Source: Brachionus manjavacas
Lineage: Eukaryota; Rotifera; Eurotatoria; Ploima; Brachionidae
Assembly (NCBI GenBank): GCA_019054805.1
Contig: JAHQIY010000005.1
Span: forward strand, 5,067,501 to 5,131,500
Direction: 5' to 3'
Length of the DNA: 64,000 nucleotides
Each line of letters begins with the position of its first letter. The stretch's first letter is position 1. Below the pieces are notes generated by a model. That model ran no database searches, was not told where the DNA came from, and worked only from the letters and a program-made list of their open reading frames with translations. Shown here in pieces: positions 2,806 through 63,865 of this stretch. The translations under genes and the position numbers were made by a program.

Positions 2806-5768
2806 TCATAATAGCTTGCTAAAGTCAATTTTATCAATTTTGTTTTTAAAAGTATCTATAGAAGTTGAGTTTAAAATGTCTTTGTCCAACCAATTCCAAG
2901 CGTTTACTACTCTGTTACTGAAGAAATTATATCTCTGATCACAATTTTTAACCAGTTGTTTCTCCAAAATGAAGTCATGGCGTCTTGGGATTGTTCTGAG
3001 CGTACTTTCTTTGTTTTTGAAGACCAAGGGCTTGAACCAATTGATATTATCCAGACCTTTTACAATCTTGAACATCTCAATTAAGTCTCCTCTAAGTCTT
3101 CTAATTTCTAAAGTTATCAAGTTTAAGCCAACTTATCTACCGTGATAGCTTAGTTTGCTTAATTCTGGTACGAGTTTGGTCGCTCTTCTTTGGACTGATT
3201 CCAACACTTTTATATCTTTCTTTAGATATGGATTCCAAACTTGAACACCGTACTCTAAATGAGGTCTCACATAAGCCTTGTATAGCCTCCTTACCGTTTC
3301 TTTACTTTTGAATTTAATTGTACGTTTGATTGAGCCCAAGACAGAATTTGCTTTGTTAGCCGCGGCATTTACCTGAATTGACCATTTTAAATTGTTCGTA
3401 ACAATCACACCTAAGTCACGTTCGCTTTCTGTTTTCATTTAGGGCATGTTGTTTATTGTGTAATTGAATTGAGGATTATTTGAACCACAGTGCATGACCT
3501 TGCATTTCTCGTCATTCAATTTAATTAACCAATCGTCCGTCCATTTTGAGACTTTGATAAGATCGTTTTCAATACCAGAGCAGGATTTCGCATTGTCTAT
3601 AACTGACATTAATTTTGAATCGTCGGCGAACATTTCACAAAGGTTGTTCAACAGTTTTGGCAAATCATTAATGTAAATTAGAAACAAGATCGGCCCTAGA
3701 ACTGATCCTTGTGGAACTCCACTTGTTACTTCGATCCAATCAGAGACAGATTCTCCCAAAACAACTCTTTGTCTTCTGTTTGACAAAAATGCTTGTATCC
3801 ATTTAATTATAGAACTGTCAAAGCCGTAACATTTGAGTTTATGCATAAGACGTTTATAAGGGACTGTGTCGAATGCTTTGGCAAAGTCTAAATAAATAAT
3901 GTCCAAAGCCAGTCTCAGATTCAATGTCTGTGACATAAAATCAACTGTCTCAAGCAAGTTTGTAGCACAAGATTTTTTGTTCACAAATCCATGTTGTCTA
4001 ATGTTAATCAAATTGTTTACTACCAGAAAGTCAATCAGGACATTTTTTAAAAGCCTCTCCATAACCTTGCACAGAATGGATGTGAGTGACACAGGCCTAT
4101 AGTTTGAAGCCTGAACTCTGCACCCCTTCTTAAACAAGGGAGTTACATTAGCTTCTAGCCAGTTACTCGGAACTGAAGAGATCTTAAAGGACTTGATGAA
4201 CATAATGGAAAATGGACGAGCCATGGCCTCAGCAGTCTCCCTAATAACCCAAGGGTGTATACCGTCTGATCCTAGAGCTTTGTGCTTTTCGAGCTGCTTT
4301 AGCTGTCTCAAGACATTCTCTTCTGAGAAAACAATGTCTGGATCGATTGTCACTGTCTTATCGGTAAGATTGTACATAAAAGCTGTTAACTCGGGCTCAT
4401 CTTTAATGAAAACTGATTCAAACTGTTCATTTAAGATGTTACATAGATCTGATGGTTCAGTTTTCAGATGACCAGTTTTATCTCGAAGGGCTTTTATCTG
4501 GTCTTTAACAGCCATCCTTGAGTTAATATGAATAAAACAATTTCGGGTTATTCTTACAGCGTGTGACAAGACTTTTTTCAAACGTTTTTAGATCGTTTTT
4601 AATGAACATTTTACCTTTTTTTTAGTTGCTTGAAAGAATCGAAAACTCGTGGATTTTTTTTTGATGCTAAATACCTAAACCATGAATTCTTTTTTTCGCG
4701 TAATAGTTTTTTACTAGATATTGAAATCCATGGGCAATGCGGCTTAGATGACCTTTTTCGAAACGGTATGTGCTTTTTGCATAAGTCATTATAAACTCCT
4801 AAAAATGATTCGTACGATGATTCAACGTCTCTTTCTTCAAAAAGCTCAAACCAATTGATTTTTTTTAATTCATCTGAAATCGATTTATATTTGCCCCTTG
4901 AAAAATCGAAACGCCGACTATCGAAATTGTTAAACAGTGACAATGTTGAATATTTAAATGTTAAAATGTGATGTCCCCTTGAAAGGTCACCTAGAGCCGG
5001 CTTGTGTTCCAGCTCAATGATTCTTTCTCGGTTTGAAGTTAATATTAAATCTAAAATATTTGTGCTTGTATAATCGTTTAATTGAAATGTGTTATCCTCG
5101 ACAACTTGACTCAAGAATGAGTCCTGCAAATTTTCTTCAAAAATTTGACTCGGTAAGTCGAATGGAGTGATTTCATGAAAATCGTCATTCTTCGACCATT
5201 TAATTGATGGGAAATTGAAATCACCACAAACGACTAGGCTACTTTAACGACCCGCATATACAAATTTACTTGCTTTGTTTAATACTAGATTAATTCTTAG
5301 GTCAGACTCAGAGGTAGAGTTTGGTGGTCTATAAAAACACCCAACAAGTATTCTATCCGACTTGTTACGAATTTCACACCAAACACACTCCTTTAAGTCA
5401 TCGTGTAACTCCAGTGATTCAACAGTCAGCCCATTTAGAGCTTCCTTCACAAAAATACAGACGCCACCTCCTCTTGAGCCCCTGTCTCTACGATATACTG
5501 AGTAACCATTAATGTTAGTTAGAGACGTCTCTCCGAACCAAGTTTCAGAGACAAGAACAACGTCGGGTTCTTCAACTTCGATTTCCGCTTCTAAATAAGT
5601 CATTTTGTTGTCTAGTGAAGTTGCGTTTGTATACCAATATTTGAGAAAGTTTCTGTTGATAGCAGGCTCACGATTTAAGTCAAGTTTTCGAGGTAAACGT
5701 TCGGGAATTTTATTATTTATTGAAACTTTATTTGTTAATGAATTGTTGTATTGACAATTACGATGAAA
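2806..5768 (-). pseudogene. LINE ORF2: APE endonuclease plus reverse transcriptase, lightly damaged
   Basis: Reading from 5768: 'YWYTNATSLDNKM', then the APE-type endonuclease (5603-4611: 'DVVLVSETWF', 'GYSVYRRDRGSRGGGVCIFV', a GDFNFP region, 'LDLILTSN', 'SRGHHILTFKYS'). Next is the RT (4581-3439: 'ALGSDGIHPWVIRE', 'NYRPVSLTSILCKVMERLL', 'QHGFVNKKSCATNLLE', 'YLDFAKAFDTVP', 'SGVPQGSVLGPILFLIYIND', catalytic FADD). The C-terminal domain ends with 'VRPHLEYGVQVWNPYLKKD' and 'FFSNRVVNAWNWLD'. Breaks seen: a stop/shift around 5244-5129, a stop near 4611, a shift near 4560, a stop at about 3436 and a shift near 3125. The catalytic residues of both domains remain, so this copy was recently active. 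Confidence 0.88.
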
Positions 5769-51012: not shown

Positions 51013-53197
51013 ATGCGATTAAACCGAGGTTATTCAGTTGTTTTTAAATTCTTAATTATTCTTATTTTAATTAAAGTAATAATTTTTTTAAATAAAAAAC
51101 CTAATAATTATTCAAATTCAAAAATTGTGATTAAAAGAAAAACAAATATGATATCAGCTAATTATACAATATCACAATGTGATATTAGCTTCATAAATCC
51201 TCACGAAAACGTTTCGATTGTAACAAATTTCACGCAACATTTTCAGCCATTCCAAACCGAAATAAATTACGATCGAACAAAAGAAGACTTGGGTTTTATG
51301 GAAAATATAAAAATGGGTGGACAGTTTGAACCAAAAGATTGTGAGGCTGTCAGTCATGTTGCCATAGTCATTCCATACAAAAATCGTGAACACAATCTCA
51401 GAGTGTTCTTGTACAACATGCATCCTTTTCTCCAAAAGCAAAGCCTGAGCTACACAATTTTTGTAGTCGAGCAAGTGAACAGTGACAAATTTAACAAAGG
51501 CAGAATAAACAATGCTGCTTTCATTGAAATCATCCAAAAGCCAACCAAAAATTTCACCTTAGCATCCGATTTTGAATGCATTGTTTATCATGATGTAGAT
51601 CTACTTCCCGCAAGTAAATTTTCTTCATTCTTCATGATTCTGTAAAATTCAGTACAATAGAACAGAACATTAAAAAAATCGATAAAAATCACATTTCTTT
51701 TTATCTAGAAGAAATAATTGTCTTGTAAGTAGAATACAATTCATAAGTCTTGCTTTTTCTCAATGAATTTTCGGCATATATGAGTCTTGTTAACCTTTAT
51801 GATCGTAAACATAAAGCGCACAATATTATACATGACATGTTTAATCGATAAGATAATATGTTTAATCTTATTTAAGCTTACTGACAATATGTATACTATT
51901 ATACAAATTTTGTATAAAAGTATACAAAATTTAATTTTTGAATTAACCAAAAACTGTATTTTTTTATATATTTTTAATATTATTTTATATTTTTTTATAT
52001 ATATTTTTTATTTTTTTTTATTATTATATATTTTATATTTTTTAAAGTGAAATTTTTTTTTTTAATTAATTTTACTTTCCATTTTATTTGTCAAATTTAT
52101 TTTGGTAATTTCAGCTCTGTTAATTTTCTGTTAAAATTTTTTTTCAATGCTATTAACAATACTATTTTCGGTTAATGCAAAAATTAAATTTTGTATACTT
52201 TTATACAAAATATGTATACTAGTATACAAATTTTTTATAATGTCAGGAAGCTTGTATACGATTAAACATGTCATGTTTGATATTATACACTTTATGTATA
52301 CGATTATACATGCCTTAAAAATAGGTTAACAAGACTCATCTATACCGAATTTTCTTTTAAAAAATTTGCAAATTAAACAAGAATTAGTTACTTTTTTGCG
52401 AAGGATTTAAAGGAATATAAAATGAGAATATAAAAAAGTAAAAATCTTTTTTTTACTTTTTTTTAATTTTAATCATTAGATATAAAGAGCAAAAATAAAA
52501 TTGATTTTTTGTAATTTTAATCTTATTGTCTATCAATGAGTGCTTGCACTTGACTAGGAAGCTAAAGAGATTGAGGCAAAATTTTTTTTTTTTTTAGGTT
52601 TCTGATTTTACAACAAAGACAAAGATTTACTTGATTTTCTAAAAAAAATTTTGACTCTTTTGAACTGAGTTTTAAAAAACCATATTCATAAGCATTAATT
52701 TTTTTTCGTTCATTTAGGTTATATGAATTTGTATACTTGTCCTGAAAAGCGACCCAAGCATTTATCGATTCTAGTCGGAAAAATTGACTATCGAAGTTTT
52801 TATCCCATTCTCATTGGGGGTGTTTTATTTTTTAAATTTGAGAATTATCTCCAAGTAAATGGTTATTCGAATAGATTTTGGGGATGGGGTATCTAAAAAA
52901 AATATAATTTTGCATATCTAAAATTTTGTTTGTTTAGGAGGTGAAGATGACGACATGTATTATAGACTGGAAGGGACTCGTTTGGGATTTGATAGACCTT
53001 TAAATAACACTATTTATAAAATGCTTAAGCATACAATTCAAAAACGTAATATGAAGCGTTTCCAAATCTTAAAGGAAATTAAGAACAAATACTTCGATGA
53101 TGGTTTGAACACTGTCAATTATAAATTAAAATCTGTCACAAAATACCGGTTATTTACCCATCTTGTTATTGACGTCGGTCAACTAGATTTGTATTAA
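51013..53197 (+). CDS. Beta-1,4-galactosyltransferase, copy 1 (3 exons)
   Basis: Exons 51013-51613, 52718-52888 and 52938-53197 join in frame to 343 residues. Type II Golgi protein: cytosolic RLNRGYSVVFK, membrane anchor 'FLIILILIKVIIFL', stem, then catalytic domain. Family motifs: 'CDISFINPHENVS', 'VAIVIPYKNREHNLRVFLYNMHPFLQKQ', 'VVEQVNSDKFNKGRINN', metal-binding DVDLLP, 'NLYTCPEKRPKHLS', 'NGYSNRFWGWGGEDDDMYYRL' and 'DGLNTVNYKL'. It transfers galactose from UDP-Gal to GlcNAc-type acceptors with Mn2+. The first intron (about 1.1 kb) holds a 580-bp MITE. A tandem paralogue lies 6.4 kb downstream. All catalytic residues that I can check are present. Confidence 0.93.
51770..52349. mobile_element. 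MITE in intron 1 of galactosyltransferase copy 1
   Basis: The arms of about 170 bp are inverted copies: the left begins TTCGGCATATATGAGTCTTG TTAACC and the right is its inverse (GGTTAACAAGACTCATCTAT ACCGAA). Inside each arm are repeated TATAC/GTATA words (for example TTTTGTATAAAAGTATACAA). The middle 51945-52185 is A/T-rich and non-coding. It would fold into one long hairpin in the pre-mRNA. Confidence 0.8.
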
Positions 53198-53512
53198 AAT
53201 TTTTGTTATCAATTTTTAAATAAAAATATTGATTCTTAGTCTTAACTCTTAATTTGAAAAAATTTGATAATAACTTTTGAATTTATCAAGAATACGTATT
53301 CAAACTTCATTTGAATTTAGATAATGCATTTAAAAATTAAAATTGATTTTTAGTTATATTGTAAAAATTAGAAAAAAATTTTGTTTGAACATGGAAATTT
53401 TTTATTTAATAACTATCAGAAAAGACAAATCATAAAAAAATTCATTTTCAGTGAGGGATTGATTACTTTGCACGAAACTAGTGAGTTTGAGTTGTTCAAC
53501 CAAGATGTTGAG
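53198..53512. other. Short AT-rich spacer
   Basis: 3' flank of galactosyltransferase copy 1; no feature. Confidence 0.4.
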
Positions 53513-55330
53513 TTTTTTTTATTTTATTGTTTATCTGAAATGGTTGAACCGCGGAGTTCAGCAGCAGTTCACTAACGTACCAAGCTATGGCAGATGTCTT
53601 TGACTAGTTGAAAATTCGTCATATTTTTTCTTAAAAATATTGAGTATTTCAGCATTTTCGATATTTCCCGGTAAATTGTTCCAGGCAGGTACCACTCTAG
53701 TTGTGAAAAAATTGTGTCTTAAAGTTGAACGGATGGAACCAGTCTACAATATTAAGATTTTATTAATTTTAAAGTATTAGTTTGGATCACTCCTTTTTCT
53801 TCCAACTTCTAGAGTTATTAATCCAAGTTTTTTATCGCGATCTTAACAACTCATGTCCTGATGGTTAGAACGAGCTTTGTGTCCCTCCTTTGGTCATTGT
53901 GAATTTATTTAACTCCTTGTTTCAGATAGGGTTCCAAACTGTTGAGCCGTATTCCAGAATGGGTCGCACGCACAAAGTAAATAGTATTTTGAAAAGTCTT
54001 GTGTCCAAATTTTCATAAAATTTTTTTTAACTTTTCGTGGACAAAATTTTCTTTGAGGATGAGTGCAGAAACATACCCCTTCCATCTCAGGTCATCTTGA
54101 AGTTTTACTTCTAGATTTCGTTCTAATTTTGTGTTTCCTAAAACAAACACCATGTCGTCGATTTTGAACGAGTACACATGGTCTTAGTGAAGTCTTTTTG
54201 TAGCTGATCTGCATGATTTTACATTTGTCTAAGTTGATGTCCATGTTCCATTTTACAGTTCATTCTAATAATATATTGATGTTGAATTGTAATTTCTGGC
54301 GGTCTTATGGATTTTTGATTGAACTGAAAAACTTGCTTTTGTCAGCAAACATTTTACAGAGAATGGATAATCCGTTTGGCAAGTCACTGATGAAGATCAA
54401 AAACAATATTGGGCTTAAAACAGACCCATGTTGTACACCGCTCAGAGCTGGTTTCCAAAGGGACGATATACCACCAAGAACTACTCTCTTTTTTCTTTTG
54501 GAAAGAAATGCAATCAGATAACAAAATATTTTATCCTTGAATCCAAAAGTTTCCAATTTGCCAATCAACTCTTTTGGATCCTCGGTTGTGACCATGTCGA
54601 AGGCTTCCATAATGTCTATAAATAAAATGCAAATTCTCTATCCGACTCCATTGTGTAATTACTACCTAACAATTTCCTGAACTATCAGACATTTAAACAT
54701 GTCTAACCTCTAGCTATTTCAACTTAACGTTTTTAATTTTTTTTTCATTATTTAATCCTTTTTTTATCTTATTTAACTTTATTTTTAATTTAGTTTATTT
54801 TTGTTTTTTATTTTTTTTATTTTATTTTATATATATTTATTCTAAAGGAGTATTAGCTCGGTACAGATTTACAAACAAATAAATAAAATTCTCAAGTTAA
54901 GCACTCGATTATAAAGTCGATTGATTTTAAAAGAATTATGGCACAAGACTTGGATTTCATGATACCGTGTTGACTATTCGAAATTAGGTTGTTTTTATTT
55001 TTTAACTCAACAAAAAGATTTTTTGTGATTTTTGTCATTGTTTTGCACAAGACAGATGTAATTGAATTAGGCCTGTAGTTTGAAGGTTGAATTTTGCTGC
55101 CTTTTTTGCTAATTTGCGTTTTGTTTGCTTGGCCCAAGGTGGTAAGAAAACAGCACTGACTTTTTGAGTGTCTAGGCTTGCGAATGCTGTAAAATTTGTC
55201 GTTTAAAATACTGACAATTTCTTGTTGATTTGATTGTTAAGATCGGTTTGTGATCTGATATCATCTTTGAATACAGTTTGACTTTTTAAGTATGAGTACC
55301 AAATTCTTAAATTCGTTTTGCAGATTGTTG
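53513..55330 (-). mobile_element. CR1/L2-like LINE, 5'-truncated, interrupted
   Basis: Minus strand from 55330: 'LRIWYSYLKSQTVFKDDI', RT motifs 'KKGSKIQPSNYRPNSITSVLCKTM' and 'ISNSQHGIMKSKSCAIILLKSIDFIIECL'. After an inserted segment (54638-54885): 'FIDIMEAFDMV', 'LSKRKKRVVLGG', 'SGVQHGSVLSPILFLIFISDLPNGLSILCKMFAD' (FADD as FADK). The C-terminal 'FFTTRVVPAWNNLPGNI' at about 53640 is followed by an A-rich tail near 53513-53530. Multiple frameshifts. Confidence 0.82.
54638..54893 (+). mobile_element. Inserted 3' end of another LINE, with target-site duplication
   Basis: The insert runs from about 54638 to a tail ...ACAAACAAATAAATAAA and is bordered by the shared word AAATTCTC (54630-54637 and about 54886-54893). 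Near its end is TTCTAAAGGAGTATTAGCTC, the 3' motif also seen at 56200 and, inverted, at 15765. Removing it restores the contiguous RT sequence of the host LINE. Confidence 0.75.
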
Positions 55331-55984
55331 CTAAATTAAAATCAATTAATGAATCTAATAAATTTTTAATAAAAATTTTGAAAGCTAAAAATTTTAATAA
55401 AATAATTAAAAATAATGCTATATCAAATGATTATCTATTTTAAAAAAGTCTAAATTTGGGAATTAGACTAAGCTAAATTTTTTTCTTTTTTATTTTATTA
55501 AGCCTGTTTTTCTTAAAGATTTAGATAAATAATTAATTAAAATTTTAGCAAAATCATGCCGACAAAAAATTTCTTAAAAATCATTTAGCAAGCATATAAT
55601 AGCTAAAAAACTAAAATTATTAACACTCCTAATGATATAAAATGTTCTTTATTTAATTCTTATTATCTATTTTTATAATTTTCTAGATGATATCAAAGAA
55701 AATATTAAGGAGCGAATGACAGTAAGATTTATTGACAACCTTATTGTCACTATAGAATATACGATTTCTGCAATTATAGGTCTTACCATATCTCATTCTT
55801 TTGTCTGCATATGATATAAAAAAGATATACCATAGAGTGAAAATTTCTATTTATAGATTATTACAGCTTAAATTAGAAAAAAAATTTGAAAACTAAATAA
55901 TTTTTTAAATTGGTAACTAATAAGTTGAACCCATATCATTCATTTAATTTATTGATTAATTTAGTGTCATTGGTATAATAACAA
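55331..55984. other. AT-rich spacer
   Basis: A possible short exon (after TTTTCTAG at 55678-55685, 'DIKENIKERMT', donor GTAAGA) was noted, but no partners were found. No gene called. Confidence 0.3.
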
Positions 55985-56262
55985 GTTAATGCTTTTTGTG
56001 GTAGTGTTAATTGTGTTTGAGTTGAAAGATTCGAAATGATTTGATTTAGTTTGTTATGATCATATGATGGGTTCAAATTTGTATACGAATATGAATTATA
56101 TAAATGTCTCTAAAGTCTTTGCTTAATCATTATTCAATTAAACTTTATTTGCATTTTTTTTTGCTTATTAACACTATTTTAATTTTTTTTTTAAATTTAT
56201 TCTGAAGGAGCTCTAGCTCAGAACAGAAAACAAATAAATAAATAAATAATAAATCCTTAATC
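55985..56262 (+). mobile_element. LINE 3' UTR fragment with (AAAT)n tail
   Basis: Ends TTTATTCTGAAGGAGCTCTA GCTCAGAACAG, then an AAATAAATAAATAAATAA tail. Same 3' motif family as 54638-54893. The coding part is not preserved. Confidence 0.6.
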
Positions 56263-56282
56263 ATAATAATTTTAAAAAATGT

Positions 56283-56520
56283 CTATTACTGATTCTTTAG
56301 TGCCAGAGTCTCACTCGAATAATCACTAAGACGACTCAATTAATGACGTGGTTGTTGTACCTTTAAAAAAGCGTGATAAGGGTATTGTGTATGAGTTTGT
56401 TCAAGAAACTAACGAACAAAATTTCATGTCTGACTTTAATACAGAAAAAAACGCAATCGAATTTATCAGTCTTATTAATAAATTTGTCAGCAAAAACAAA
56501 ATATTTCAACAAACTTAATA
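56283..56520 (+). pseudogene. Unidentified ORF fragment, possibly N-terminus of a MULE-type transposase
   Basis: From an ATG near 56281: 'MSITDSLVPESHSNN', one in-frame TAA, then 'DDSINDVVVVPLKKRDKGIVYEFVQETNEQNFMSDFNTEKNAIEFISL'. 'KKR.K.IVYEFVQE' is how many rotifer and insect MULE/FLYWCH-type proteins begin, but this is recollection, not a search. It ends before the tRNA gene; nothing of a catalytic domain is present. Confidence 0.3.
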
Positions 56521-56600
56521 AAAAATATAAAAAATTTAGAATCAAAATGAAAAAAAAGTTTTCGTATTTTAAAAAAAGATTTTGATATAAGTATTTGTAT

Positions 56601-56672
56601 TCCCATATGGTCTAGTGGTTAGGATTCCTGCCTTTCACGCAGGCGGCCCGGGTTCAATTCCCGGTGTGGGAA
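56601..56672 (+). tRNA. tRNA-Glu (TTC)
   Basis: 72-nt cloverleaf: acceptor TCCCATA/TGTGGGA, D arm with TGGTCTAGTGGTTAGGATT (A box), anticodon loop CTTTCAC within CCTGC...GCAGG giving anticodon UUC, T arm CCGGGTTCAATTCCCGG (B box), no intron. A T7 run at about 56677-56683 is a proper pol III terminator. All stems pair apart from one G-U in the acceptor. Confidence 0.97.
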
Positions 56673-56859
56673 AACTTTTTTTGCTTGCAAATAATGTTTA
56701 AAAGTATCAAACAAAATTATTTTTGATTCATTTTTCTTTTATTGATTAAAAACGATAGTAGATCAAAAACACAATATTAATAAAACATGATAATGAAAAT
56801 AAACAATATTTAATTTCCTTATCAGGCTGTAAAGTTTTTATCTCACAGATGTATTGACT

Positions 56860-57530
56860 TTTGTAGTAATCATTTCGGTGAGCTTTTTTTTGATGTTGAC
56901 CTCCAAGTTACCACTGGTTATTTTACCTTCCGTAGCTCTTCAGGTATCCATTGAAGATCTGTTCAGTATAAAAGTTCCTATCATTCTAAGTAATAGCTGA
57001 CTGACTTTAATGCTAGTAGGAGTCTTGCAAAGTCACCTATTGCTTTAGCTACTGTAAATGTCTTTATGCGTTCCCTTTGTTGCAATGATGATACTCTCTA
57101 ACGATGAGTTTCTTAAAGCTTACGGACTCGTGTGTGCATTGATCGAAAATGTTTGCTGTTTTTTATCTCTCGAATGATACTCTCAAAGAATATTAGACTG
57201 GGCTAAATATTGGTCGGTTTCTCTGTGTATTGAAGTGCAAAGTGATGGACCTTAGCGACAAGAAGTCTAAATACATGTGGTGGTTGAGAAAATTTGGTTT
57301 AGGGATGGTCAAGAGAACAAATAAATTACTAAACACTGAATTTGTAAGTAAACTTTATAACTATCTTGTGAGATCACATATGGAATATGGTGTAAAGATT
57401 CGGAATAAATATCTAATTAAATACATTGCTATGGGGCATCGTGAATTTCCATACAAAAATACCAATACAAAATTTAAATTCTTAATAAAAATCTGGATTT
57501 TGAACTACAGATTTTTTTCTAAGCTTTAAG
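56860..57530 (+). mobile_element. Decayed LINE ORF2 fragment
   Basis: Around 57200-57420: 'WAKYWSVSLCIEVQ', 'KVMDLSDKKSKYM', 'LYNYLVRSHMEYGVKIRNKYLIKYI', corresponding to the 'KCKVMHCG' and 'LYKAYVRPHLEYGVQVWNPYLKKDI' segments of the LINE at 2751-6472. Upstream to 56860 only traces remain. Confidence 0.6.
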
Positions 57531-58380
57531 AGGTGAAACAAACAATGTTTCATTAAACAGTCCAGTTTAAAGAAAAAATTTAAATAAATGTCTGTCAACA
57601 AATTGTATGTTAACTAAGAATTGAAAAATAAAAACTTTCAAATTAAAACTGTCTAATTTAAAATCATTTAGGAAGCGATGACAGAACTTTAACATTTAAA
57701 TAAAATTTACAAAATGAAAATGTATTTTATTTTTTTGCAATTCTTGGAAAACCGCTTGAAGTTAGAAGATTTTGCTGCAGAATTAGAATCAAAGCTATAC
57801 CTTTCTTAATTTTGGAATAAAGAATGAAAACAAAAATTTTAAAATGAAATAACTTTTTAGCAACTTGAAGTTCATGATCATGATCACATGATCAAAACTA
57901 AAAAGAATAAAATCATCATAAAAATTATGAAAAAATCTTTATTAAAATGTTCTTAAATTAAACACAAAATGTTTATTATATTAATTAAATAAAAAAAAAT
58001 CTTTTTTTTCCCAATAGATCTTTAATTTATTTTTTTAAAATATTAATTTGAAAATTTTTAAGACAAAATTTAAAATCCACATTAAAGCATCCAATTTATG
58101 CTTTAAATGATATTTTAATATTAGTTAAAATATATTACAGCGAAACAAAGTTAAATTTTGTATTGCAAAATTTTAAAATATTGATTTAGATTTTATTTTA
58201 CTTCAGTTAAAATTCATATAATCTTTTTCCTAATTAAAGATTAAACAAATGATGTATAATAAAGTTTAAAAATTTACCATTTAAAAAATTGATAAAAAAT
58301 AGCTTTTTTTTTAAATAAAAAACTAAAAATTTTGATGTGAAATTTACATTTGATCAAAAACTTCAATTCGCCTAATTTTT
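57531..58380. other. AT-rich intergenic DNA
   Basis: No feature recognised. Confidence 0.4.
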
Positions 58381-58599
58381 TTACTTTGAATCTAAAAATT
58401 GTTCTGCAAAATTTATCAGCTGATCGAAACTTTAAACCCCCAAATTAAGTTTTTTAAAAAATTCTGCAATTTAATTTTAATAATTATACATTTAGTGCTT
58501 TGCAGACTTGCAGAGATTTTGCAGAGACTTTATTTGGTTGTTTAAAAGTTTGTATCAGCTGATGCATTTTTCAGAACAATTTTTAGATTCATAGTAAAA
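58381..58599. repeat. MITE with about 57-bp inverted repeats
   Basis: TTACTTTGAATCTAAAAATT GTTCTG ... ATCAGCTGAT (58381-58436) is inverted at 58541-58599. The spacer has TTTGCAGA-type words; GCAGAGATTTTGCA is shared with the core of the MITE at 39763-40079, hinting at a related family. Confidence 0.7.
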
Positions 58600-58739
58600 T
58601 ATTTATTTCATTCTTAATTTTTTGTTTTTCTTCTTTAGTACTTATTTTGCTTATTGCTCAATAAATTTAATTATTTTTGAAGTTTTTTTTTCCACTAAAA
58701 TTAATATCAAAACAATGTTATAATTAATAAACTTTGATT

Positions 58740-58870
58740 AAAAAAAAATTTTATTTTCATGCAAAAAAAAGTATACGTTAAACCCGAAGAGGGGTTTTTG
58801 GATCCTCTAAAAATATTGTCTTTTATTTTGATAAATAAATCAAAAACATGGATAACGATACCTACTTAAT
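58740..58870 (-). repeat. Dispersed repeat copy 2 (inverse of 41300-41430)
   Basis: The reverse complement reads 'TTTGATTTATTTATCAAAA', 'GACAATATTTTTAGAGGATC', 'CCTCTTCGGGTTTAACGTAT', 'CATGAAAATAAAATT', colinear with 41300-41430. Confidence 0.6.
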
Positions 58871-59064
58871 TAAGATAAAAATTATAAAGAATTTAAATAA
58901 ACGGAATTTATTGAAATTTGATTACAGTTCAAATCATCTTATAAATTCATTTTAATTAATAGAAGAAATTAATTGAGATTTATTTATTTAAAAAAAATAA
59001 ATGTATTTGTGAACCAGAGTTTTAAAAGTCATTTGACTTTACTGAATAAAATATAATAATTTGT

Positions 59065-59215
59065 TGCATCTATCCGACGTAATAATAGGTCAGGTACTCA
59101 TCGCCTTTTCCAGTACCTATCTTTTTTTTAACGACGTCTCTGGCACAGAGTTAATTCCATCAAGTAGATCTTCTACACCACTTTTATCCAAATTCATTTT
59201 TTCAGAGATGAAAAA
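59065..59215 (-). mobile_element. SINE body, partial second copy
   Basis: Minus strand: GTAGAAGATCTACTTGATG, CTCTGTGCCAGAGACGTCG, GATAGGTACTGGAAAAGGCG, then CCTATTATTACG, colinear with the 3' half of the SINE at 43398-43670. The tRNA-like head is not preserved. Confidence 0.6.
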
Positions 59216-59604
59216 AGATGTCTTAAACATAATTATCTTGCTTTGATAACTATTTTTTATGAGTTCTTTATAAATAAATATTAGTATCTTTAAACAAAAA
59301 AAAGAGTATTTAAAACCTAATTTTTCTTATAATGAACGGTAAAAATATGCAAAAATATGTTGCTAAAATTCAAATGGAAAAAAGTTTTGTGTCAATTCTG
59401 TAAATAAAATTTAAAGCAGCAAAAAAAAACACAATTAGTTCAAAATTCAAGTATTTTAGCAGAAAAACTAAAAAATTCAATTTAATTTTAAGTCGATTAA
59501 ATAAATAAATAAAATCATAAATAAAATATTAAAAATAATCTAGTATTTCTATTTTTTCTCAATTTAAAAATTCATCCTACTAACGATGTAAAACATAAAT
59601 TTAG
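59216..59604. other. Upstream region of galactosyltransferase copy 2
   Basis: AT-rich, no clear promoter element. Confidence 0.4.
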
Positions 59605-60729
59605 ATGAGGAAAAAGCAGTTTTTTCTGATTTTTTTTTTAATAATGACAATATTTTATTTGCTAAAGATTCAGAATTATATGAAAAAAATTAAATTAGTA
59701 AAAAAAAAAACAAGCTTTAATAAAACAATCTTAGAGTCAAATAATTATTCGAAGCCAAAATGTGATATCAGCTTCATAAATCCACACGAAAACGTTTCGA
59801 TTGTAACAAATTTTACGCAACATTTTCAGCCATTCCAAACCGAAATAAATTACGATCGAACAAAAGAAGACTTGGGCTTTATGGAAAATATAAAAATGGG
59901 TGGAAAGTTTGAACCAAAAGATTGTGAGGCTGTCAGTCATGTTGCCATAGTCATTCCATACAAAAATCGTGAACACAATCTCAGAGTGTTCTTGTACAAC
60001 ATGCATCCTTTTCTCCAAAAGCAAAGCCTGAGCTACACAATTTTTGTAGTCGAGCAAGTGAACAGTGACAAATTTAACAAAGGCAGAATAAACAATGCTG
60101 CTTTCATTGAAATCATCCAAAAGCCAACCAAAAATTTCACCTTAGCATCCGATTTTGAATGCATTGTTTATCATGATGTAGATCTCCTACCCACAATTAA
60201 GCATCAAAATATTAATCATTATGCATATTGGGTTTTTTTAATCTTTAGGCTACATGAATTTGTACACTTGCCCAAAAAAGCGTCCCAAGCATTTGTCAAT
60301 AATTGTCGGTAAGTCTGATTATCGAATTTACTACCCGATACTTGTGGGTGGAGTAATTTTTTTCAAAATTGAAAATTATGTTCAAGTTAATGGCTATTCG
60401 AATAGATTCTGGGGATGGGGTTTGTTCAATTTTTAGCTCTAGTTTTTAAATTAATCAAATTTTTTGAAGGAGCTGAAGATGACGATATGTTTTTTAGACT
60501 TCGATCTTCACATTTAGGCTTCGATCGTCCAAAAAATAACACTATTTACAAGATGTTACAGCATAAAAAACAAAAAAAAAATCCTTTGAGGGTTAAACTC
60601 TTACATGAAGGAAAAAACAAATATCAAAATGATGGCTTAAATTCAGTCAACTATACCCTAAAAGCAATTGTCAGACTGCCTTTATTTACATATATAATTT
60701 TAGATGCCGGAAAAGATGGATCAACATAA
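59605..60729 (+). CDS. Beta-1,4-galactosyltransferase, copy 2 (3 exons, anomalous splice donor)
   Basis: Exons 59605-60196, 60249-60419 and 60470-60729 match copy 1 in exon phase and in length for exons 2 and 3 (171 and 260 nt), giving 340 residues. Membrane anchor 'FFLIFFLIMTIFYLLKI', then the same catalytic blocks, including DVDLLP, 'NLYTCPKKRPKHLS' and 'NGYSNRFWGWGAEDDDMFFRL'. Two oddities. The first intron's donor position reads TTAAGC rather than GT (copy 1: GTAAAT), while its acceptor TTTAG and 52-bp length are normal. And the WGWGGEDDD motif is WGWGAEDDD. Unspliced, the reading frame ends at 60310. It may be a recent pseudogene or a gene using a rare donor. Exon 1 from 59760 on is nearly identical to copy 1. 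Confidence 0.8.
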
Positions 60730-63124: not shown

Positions 63125-63865
63125 TTAATAATCATCAAAATCAGTTTCTTCATTTGAATCAGTATCCAAATTAATGTCACTGTAATCATTATTGTTGAAA
63201 ATTGGATTGGTCATAATCTTCAATCATGTCAACTTGATTTTTTTCCATAAAAGCTTGAAGCTGAATGTGAAAATCATACATTTTTGATGATCTAATGCCA
63301 CATCGATCAAATGAGTCCCTAATAATATTTTGATCTAATTGTTTCAATATTTCATTCATCCAAACAATTCCTTGTGCATAGCCAGGTGATCTTAAATTAC
63401 CAGCTGAAGTAAAACTTTTCTCCGCATTTATTAGCCAATTTTGCCATTTATCATGATAGGCTTTCTTTAATGGACGCATCCAACTAACGTCAGCAGGCTG
63501 CAATAAATTTGTGAATCTTTTTGGGACACAAATATGTTTGATGTTGTTCTGAGCAAGAGTATTTTTCACTTAATTTGTGCAATGACAAGGCGCTTGGTCC
63601 ATGATCAAAGTTGGATTTCTCTAATCTTTGGAAGCAATTTTAGGGATTATACACCTTTTTAAAACTTCATCGCTAATCACATGCTAATTAAAAGTTCCAG
63701 ATTTGTGATAAACTACCACAACGTTACTTGGCGGCTAAAAATCTTTCAAAGGTTTTGAAATATCGTTAAGCTCAATAAAAAGATAACTTTTCTATTGTTT
63801 ATTTAATTTTATTCTAAATAAGAAAGAAGCCACTCTGAGCCAAAATGGTTAAAATAAAGAAAGAA
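63125..63865 (-). pseudogene. Pogo/Tigger-like DDE transposase, C-terminal half, with in-frame TAA/TAG codons
   Basis: Minus strand: 'KSYLFIELNDISKPLKDF', 'PPSNVVVVYHKSGTFN', 'HVISDEVLKRCIIPKIASKD', 'RNPTLIMDQAPCHCTN', 'KNTLAQNNIKHICVPKRFTNLLQPADVSWMRPLKKAYHDKWQNWL', 'FTSAGNLRSPGYAQGIVWMNEIL', 'IIRDSFDRCGI'. This is the DDE_1 core of pogo/Tigger elements (D-x-A-x-x-H, T..LQP.D, W..W, SFxxCGI). Between the named blocks stand single TAG or TAA codons; after 63189 an acidic tail (NNNDYSDINLDTDSNEETDFDDY) continues in another frame. The N-terminal HTH half should lie beyond the right edge. Confidence 0.8.

Follow-up and report, generated by a model that had tools for sequence, protein, structure and literature searches.

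Two neighbouring genes of Brachionus manjavacas share a nearly identical block in their first exon, whereas silent sites in their remaining exons have diverged almost to saturation. These genes, A (51013-53197) and B (59605-60729), encode GT7-family transferases and lie in tandem on the + strand of the window, i.e. the whole stretch of 64,000 nt analysed here (GC content 26.7%; the assembly comprises 114.17 Mb in 61 contigs). The best explanation, which we regard as very probable, is interlocus gene conversion of the 3′ part of exon 1 between two anciently duplicated genes. Interlocus conversion between neighbours is the accepted cause of such identity plateaus. Gene conversion itself is well known; this case is of interest for how sharply silent divergence changes along the genes, and for the recurrence of this contrast across gene clusters.

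Gene structure and extent of the near-identical block

The features to which we refer are the following.

51013..51613, + strand: gene A exon 1, with a predicted transmembrane anchor, stem and N-half of the catalytic domain (open frame, spliced model and Pfam; anchor and stem assigned by eye); ends CAA/GTAAAT
51614..52717, + strand: gene A intron 1, carrying a foldback element (51755-51963 / 52155-52364)
52718..52888, + strand: gene A exon 2 (spliced model, homology to B4GALT1 structures)
52938..53197, + strand: gene A exon 3, from the GEDDD motif to the stop (spliced model; end taken from the sequence)
59605..60196, + strand: gene B exon 1; the expected donor is CAA/TTAAGC, without GT
60249..60419, + strand: gene B exon 2 (spliced model)
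60470..60729, + strand: gene B exon 3, with AEDDD in place of GEDDD (spliced model; end taken from the sequence)
51176..51602, + strand: probable conversion tract, copy in gene A (427 nt, 5 differences from gene B)
59759..60185, + strand: probable conversion tract, copy in gene B (427 nt, partner of the gene A tract)
51323..51602, + strand: core of the tract in gene A, equivalent to 59906-60185 in gene B (280 nt, 0 differences)

The spliced model of gene A encodes 343 aa and contains both GT7 domains according to Pfam (PF13733, 133 bits; PF02709, 77 bits); its residues 97-338 match B4GALT1 structures with an E value of 5e-52. Gene B would encode 340 aa assuming splicing like that of gene A. 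When aligned to B4GALT1, gene A has both the DVD and the WGWGGEDDD motif; gene B has kept DVD but contains WGWGAEDDD instead of WGWGGEDDD. An earlier note on this DNA let the two first exons begin at 51176 and 59760. Exon 1 starts in fact at 51013 in gene A and at 59605 in gene B, and the block therefore constitutes the 3′ part of exon 1. The proposal that the tract falls in the N-half of the catalytic domain agrees with Pfam, which places Glyco_transf_7N there.

The two genes had been called galactosyltransferases. The assignment to the GT7 family holds, but galactose is not the likeliest donor sugar, as gene A has a Leu (PILIGGV) where B4GALT1 has a Tyr (VQYFGGV), and the Tyr preceding FGGV is thus absent. 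We take this Tyr to be Tyr289 of the bovine enzyme, a residue that invertebrate GalNAc-transferases naturally lack. The Y289L bovine enzyme accepts the GalNAc analogue UDP-GalNAz, as stated in passages of PMC9261361. Taken together, the substitution, the behaviour of the mutant enzyme and the invertebrate pattern make transfer of GalNAc by gene A likelier than transfer of galactose, as far as can be judged from sequence.

The blocks were compared by aligning them at a fixed offset of 8583. The region 51176-51611 is nearly identical, as had been noticed, with eight differences rather than about seven (51186, 51201, 51231, 51294, 51322, 51603, 51606 and 51610). The last three lie outside the tract, and at all three gene A matches the related genes c372 and c406 on contig C2 (see below). 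A stretch reported as identical from 51325 to 51602 is so indeed, and spans 51323-51602. Downstream of the tract, identity falls to 0.43 (51600-51639) and then to 0.18 (51620-51659); upstream of it, the value is 0.48 (51120-51159). The upstream anchors, described before as unrelated, are better called barely alignable (46 codons, pS 0.58, pN 0.37). For exon 2 the estimate by eye of about 78% identity agrees with the 77.8% measured (40/180 nt differ) over the 60 codons that start with the Pro in DVDLLP and run to WGWG, essentially exon 2; in exon 3, 97/255 nt differ. The tract was also said to end close to the first splice donor. This is correct for gene A, in which it ends 11 nt before the donor; the corresponding site of gene B lacks the GT.

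Divergence is not even within the tract: its 5′ part contains 5 differences in 149 nt and its 3′ part 0 in 278 nt (Fisher p 0.005, for a split point picked after looking at the data). This two-step pattern suggests at least two events.

Silent divergence and alternative explanations

Conversion is supported by the silent sites, at which the divergence (dS) of A and B amounts to 0.061 within the tract but reaches 1.59 for exon 2 and 1.78 for exon 3 (Fisher p 1e-18). The tract value corresponds to 5 of 84.8 silent sites in a block that begins at C56 and stops at the first Leu following DVD; position 51603 is included. In the sub-block from ENIK to DVDL only 1 of 61.2 silent sites differs, and this is the edge position 51603. 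The earlier note had proposed this comparison, with uniform synonymous divergence as the outcome that would speak against conversion; divergence was found to be clearly non-uniform. The longest run of identical codons covers 92 of 288 codons, a length reached in none of 20000 shuffles of the codon columns (shuffled maximum 29). When only codons with an unchanged amino acid were considered, the run comprised 101 of 238, again equalled in 0/20000 shuffles (shuffled maximum 50).

The nearest other paralog, L048, lies on the same contig at a distance of 2.9 Mb. Compared with L048 the tract is saturated at silent sites (pS 0.751 for A and 0.765 for B), which indicates that the block is not intrinsically conserved in DNA. 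In exon 2, dN is 0.09 between A and B, against 0.41 and 0.44 to L048. The exon 2 proteins of A and B are thus nearer to each other than to that of L048, as expected for old sister genes of which one segment has been refreshed; and since exons 2 and 3 are homologous and colinear, B is best seen as a gene in which one segment was replaced, rather than as the result of an exon 1 insertion. Dates are rough, because every distance measured outside the tract comes close to saturation. GC3 in the tract is higher for gene A (p 0.016) and for c372 (p 0.025), both values being uncorrected for two tests. Such an excess would fit GC-biased repair, and we mention it as a weak lead.

An assembly or polishing artefact, by which one gene received the exon 1 block of its neighbour in the assembled sequence, would account for an identity that is very high and ends abruptly. 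We consider it very unlikely, because the two copies have 5 private differences inside 51176-51602, and because the pattern recurs in other clusters with varied lengths, orientations and divergences while being found in 0/28 distant pairs. Moreover, polishing should not make near-identical a block that had diverged like its neighbours (62-78%).

A recent partial duplication could have put a copy of exon 1 beside an older C-half, giving a chimaeric gene. Partial duplications are known in nematodes, according to the sections of PMC3966223 on that subject, plain recent duplication does occur in the present genome (L087/L088, see below), and the poor alignment of the upstream anchors is in its favour. 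Nevertheless, the insert would have had to land in frame and on the same strand, between an anchor and exon 2 of its nearest relative, and the exon 2 dN values given above indicate that B was already the sister of A. We therefore regard this origin as highly improbable. Two open frames on the opposite strand, 121 and 127 aa long, overlie the block and might lead one to think of strong purifying selection on the DNA itself, exerted through an antisense frame, an RNA structure or an enhancer. Such constraint would also be expected in related genes, but tract pS is 0.75 against L048 and 0.62 against c372, which leaves room only for a constraint peculiar to A and B; the probability of this explanation is close to nil. 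Conversion between A and B is accordingly the reading that we follow below.

Near-identical segments in other gene clusters

Contig C2 carries a trio of GT7 genes, at 372, 376 and 406 kb (c372, c376 and c406), that have an internal block in common. The c372/c406 tract is 684 nt long with 3 differences; this is the contiguous length, as a segment of 733 columns bridges two aligned pieces. The c372/c376 tract (351 nt, 3 differences) is nested inside it, and such nested tracts suggest repeated conversion. In the trio dS is 0-0.033 in the core and 0.78-2.9 outside the tracts. Every pair of the trio has diverged stems, and for c372/c406 the same is true of the last exon; the c376 model is without a last exon and gives no usable exon 3 value. 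The 684-nt tract extends 19 nt into the intron, which indicates that DNA and not cDNA was copied there. The end of the A/B tract 11 nt before the donor would by itself permit cDNA-mediated conversion; as a general mechanism this was rejected on account of the intron sequence in the c372/c406 run. The 3′ ends of the A/B and c372/c376 tracts are alike: both fall within the codon for the Leu that follows DVD, at 14 and 12 nt past the C of CAT, respectively, at the border of the donor-binding half. With two cases, the common end may reflect chance or the edge of protein conservation.

Some further similarities among GT7 genes were observed. At 51573-51610, across ECIVYHDVDLLP, about 36 of 38 nt (95%) are common to gene A and the C2 GT7 genes L045 and L047, and the CTA codon for the first Leu is found, among 17 listed sequences, only in gene A and those C2 genes. 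The near-match is suggestive of exchange between contigs, which we do not claim from so short a stretch. The intron at the GEDDD motif (52889-52937 in gene A) separates WGWG from GEDDD in A, B and L048, and GGE from DDD, a few nt apart, in the C2 genes L045-L047. L045 also contains a 967-nt tandem duplication (3374-4335 / 4334-5300; 0 mismatches, 3 gaps) that includes the last exon of a GT7 gene.

Two other GT7 pairs are located on contig C9. The inverted pair L052/L053 shares 647 nt at 99.7% identity, against 67% for the rest. The pair L065/L066, which has PF02709 only and is presumably of the polypeptide GalNAc-transferase type, displays two near-identical stretches around about 180 nt at 57-61% (L065:2448-2623); its best segment was equalled in 5/1000 shuffles. 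A neighbouring GT7C pair on contig C13 (2.031/2.056 Mb) gave no DNA alignment.

Similar plateaus were detected in other families. A four-gene P450 cluster (L067-L070; C1:1658400-1674200) has plateaus in 6/6 pairs, four at 98-99% and two, L068/L069 and L069/L070, at about 95%. In L067/L068 a stretch of 69 codons with pS 0.73 lies between near-identical flanks of 61, 70 and 80 codons with pS 0.06-0.08 and no protein change; we assume that the divergent stretch matches the F-G region. The other P450 pair, L087/L088 (363-2155 / 1-1794), represents a plain recent duplication, the alignment of which covers at least 1796 nt with 3 gaps and no mismatch. This duplication sits beside a P450 gene, and the alignment reaches the end of the compared stretch. 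Among six groups of C1 peptidases a plateau was found for L071/L072 (294 nt, 97.3%) and was absent in the other five, which include L075/L076, with a 77-nt stretch at 96% that was equalled by 2/1000 shuffles, and L073/L074, with a 37-nt stretch equalled by 9/1000.

By group, plateaus were thus present in 4/5 for GT7 (the fifth not being alignable), 1/2 for P450 and 1/6 for C1 peptidases. The GT7 neighbour groups were derived from two Pfam lists and are lower bounds, and this sample was not blind, as the similarity within L052/L053 and L065/L066 was known beforehand; P450 and C1 groups were picked by coordinates alone, the P450 neighbours being sampled in part. By pair, 13 of 22 neighbouring pairs (within about 35 kb) showed a plateau, of 275-1214 nt, one was identical throughout, six were without plateau and two gave no alignment. 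These 22 pairs are not independent, since three come from one trio and six from one four-gene cluster. No plateau was detected in 28 distant pairs, whose members lie on different contigs or are separated by at least about 59 kb. Three of these pairs gave no alignment and four aligned over only 42-54 columns, too short for a plateau; the best distant segment (L071/L084, 44 nt) was equalled by 92/1000 shuffles. Together, these results indicate that conversion of internal segments is common, although not universal, among the clustered paralogs sampled here.

Possible course of conversion and fate of gene B

We propose the following course of events. An old tandem duplication would have produced A and B, whose silent sites outside the tract have since come near saturation. 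Later the 3′ part of exon 1, encoding the nucleotide-binding N-half of the catalytic domain, would have been copied between A and B, the latest copying extending over the ~280-nt core, and probably in more than one event. The copying itself may have been non-reciprocal DNA repair, and may have been repeated. Conversion would halt where the copies stop matching, that is, in the anchor and stem, which evolve fast, and at the intron. The acceptor half and the stem would stay different either through a divergence too great for conversion or through selection that separates them. With flanks near saturation, the tract would have been either re-copied so frequently that no divergence built up, or started anew from a stretch in which similarity had persisted; frequent re-copying would fit the nested and graded tracts better than a restart. 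The dS contrast bears out the recent conversion of the earlier note, although the two-step tract here and the nested or graded ones in other clusters suggest more than a single event.

Some clustered enzyme families of this genome might consist of a framework and cassettes: persistent conversion would keep the catalytic framework nearly identical over very long periods, selection would separate the specificity parts (the acceptor half and stem in GT7; the divergent 69-codon segment in P450), and tract ends would mark specificity boundaries. We put this forward tentatively and think it rather unlikely.

Several of these features have counterparts in known systems. Most measured conversion tracts are 50 to several hundred bp long and identity above 80% is favoured, as given in passages of PMC3924818. 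In Caenorhabditis, as described in parts of PMC3966223, 143 of 7829 surveyed paralog pairs (2%) are affected, KS for fog-2/ftr-1 is 0.28, and conversion is possible across 77% identity if a fully identical stretch adjoins. The same review also describes, for adjacent paralogs arranged either directly or in opposite orientation, nearly identical tracts like those found here; the present flanks, however, are near saturation and plateaus occur in 13/22 neighbouring pairs, a rate not comparable with the Caenorhabditis one since our sample is small, limited to neighbours and partly non-blind (PMC3966223). In mammalian CYP1A1/CYP1A2 some exons are likewise homogenised and others divergent, which passages of PMC3199271 read as possible selection for different substrate use. 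There, however, homogenisation affects the parts equivalent to SRS1 and SRS5, whereas in the P450 cluster analysed here 69 divergent codons lie between homogenised flanks (PMC3199271, same passages). In the mmr-b mate-recognition genes of the Brachionus plicatilis complex the units are repeats within a gene, according to excerpts of PMC3495898; here the unit is an internal block of tandem enzymes.

A tree based on the exon 1 tract alone would make A and B look newborn, while exons 2 and 3 reveal an old pair. Dating of duplicates and family trees in such clusters are consequently unreliable unless carried out segment by segment. The recurrence also allows one to ask whether conversion boundaries are set by sequence mismatch or by functional borders, a question that bears on how duplicate enzymes escape homogenisation.

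The first donor site of gene B (60194-60200) reads CAATTAAGC, compared with CAAGTAAAT in gene A, with TT at 60197-60198. An alternative donor was sought in 60150-60248; each of the three GTs in this interval, when joined to exon 2, leads to an early stop (189, 193 and 211 aa). The read-through open reading frame extends to 60312 and encodes 235 aa carrying the N-half domain only. Exons 2 and 3 of gene B contain no stop, and the amino-acid changes assigned to the time since the split number 12 for B against 11 for A when L048 serves as outgroup, 8 against 6 with c372, and 8 against 4 with c406. Together this indicates that B was probably under constraint until recently. Unless the base is wrong, gene B is probably, on its sequence, a recent pseudogene or the source of a truncated product; an unusual splice would be a further option. 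It is conceivable, though rather unlikely, that with the donor of B lost its intact exons 2 and 3 provide exon 1 of gene A with an alternative 3′ half.

The foldback in intron 1 of gene A is an inverted repeat (74%), fragments of which are present on C1, C2, C3 and elsewhere on C5. A tRNA-Glu (ttc) lies at 56600-56673, in the interval that separates gene A from gene B. The window also includes a T-box gene, reverse transcriptase and endonuclease frames resembling those of a non-LTR element (3439-5603, - strand) and a piece of a DDE_1 transposase (63189-63569, - strand).
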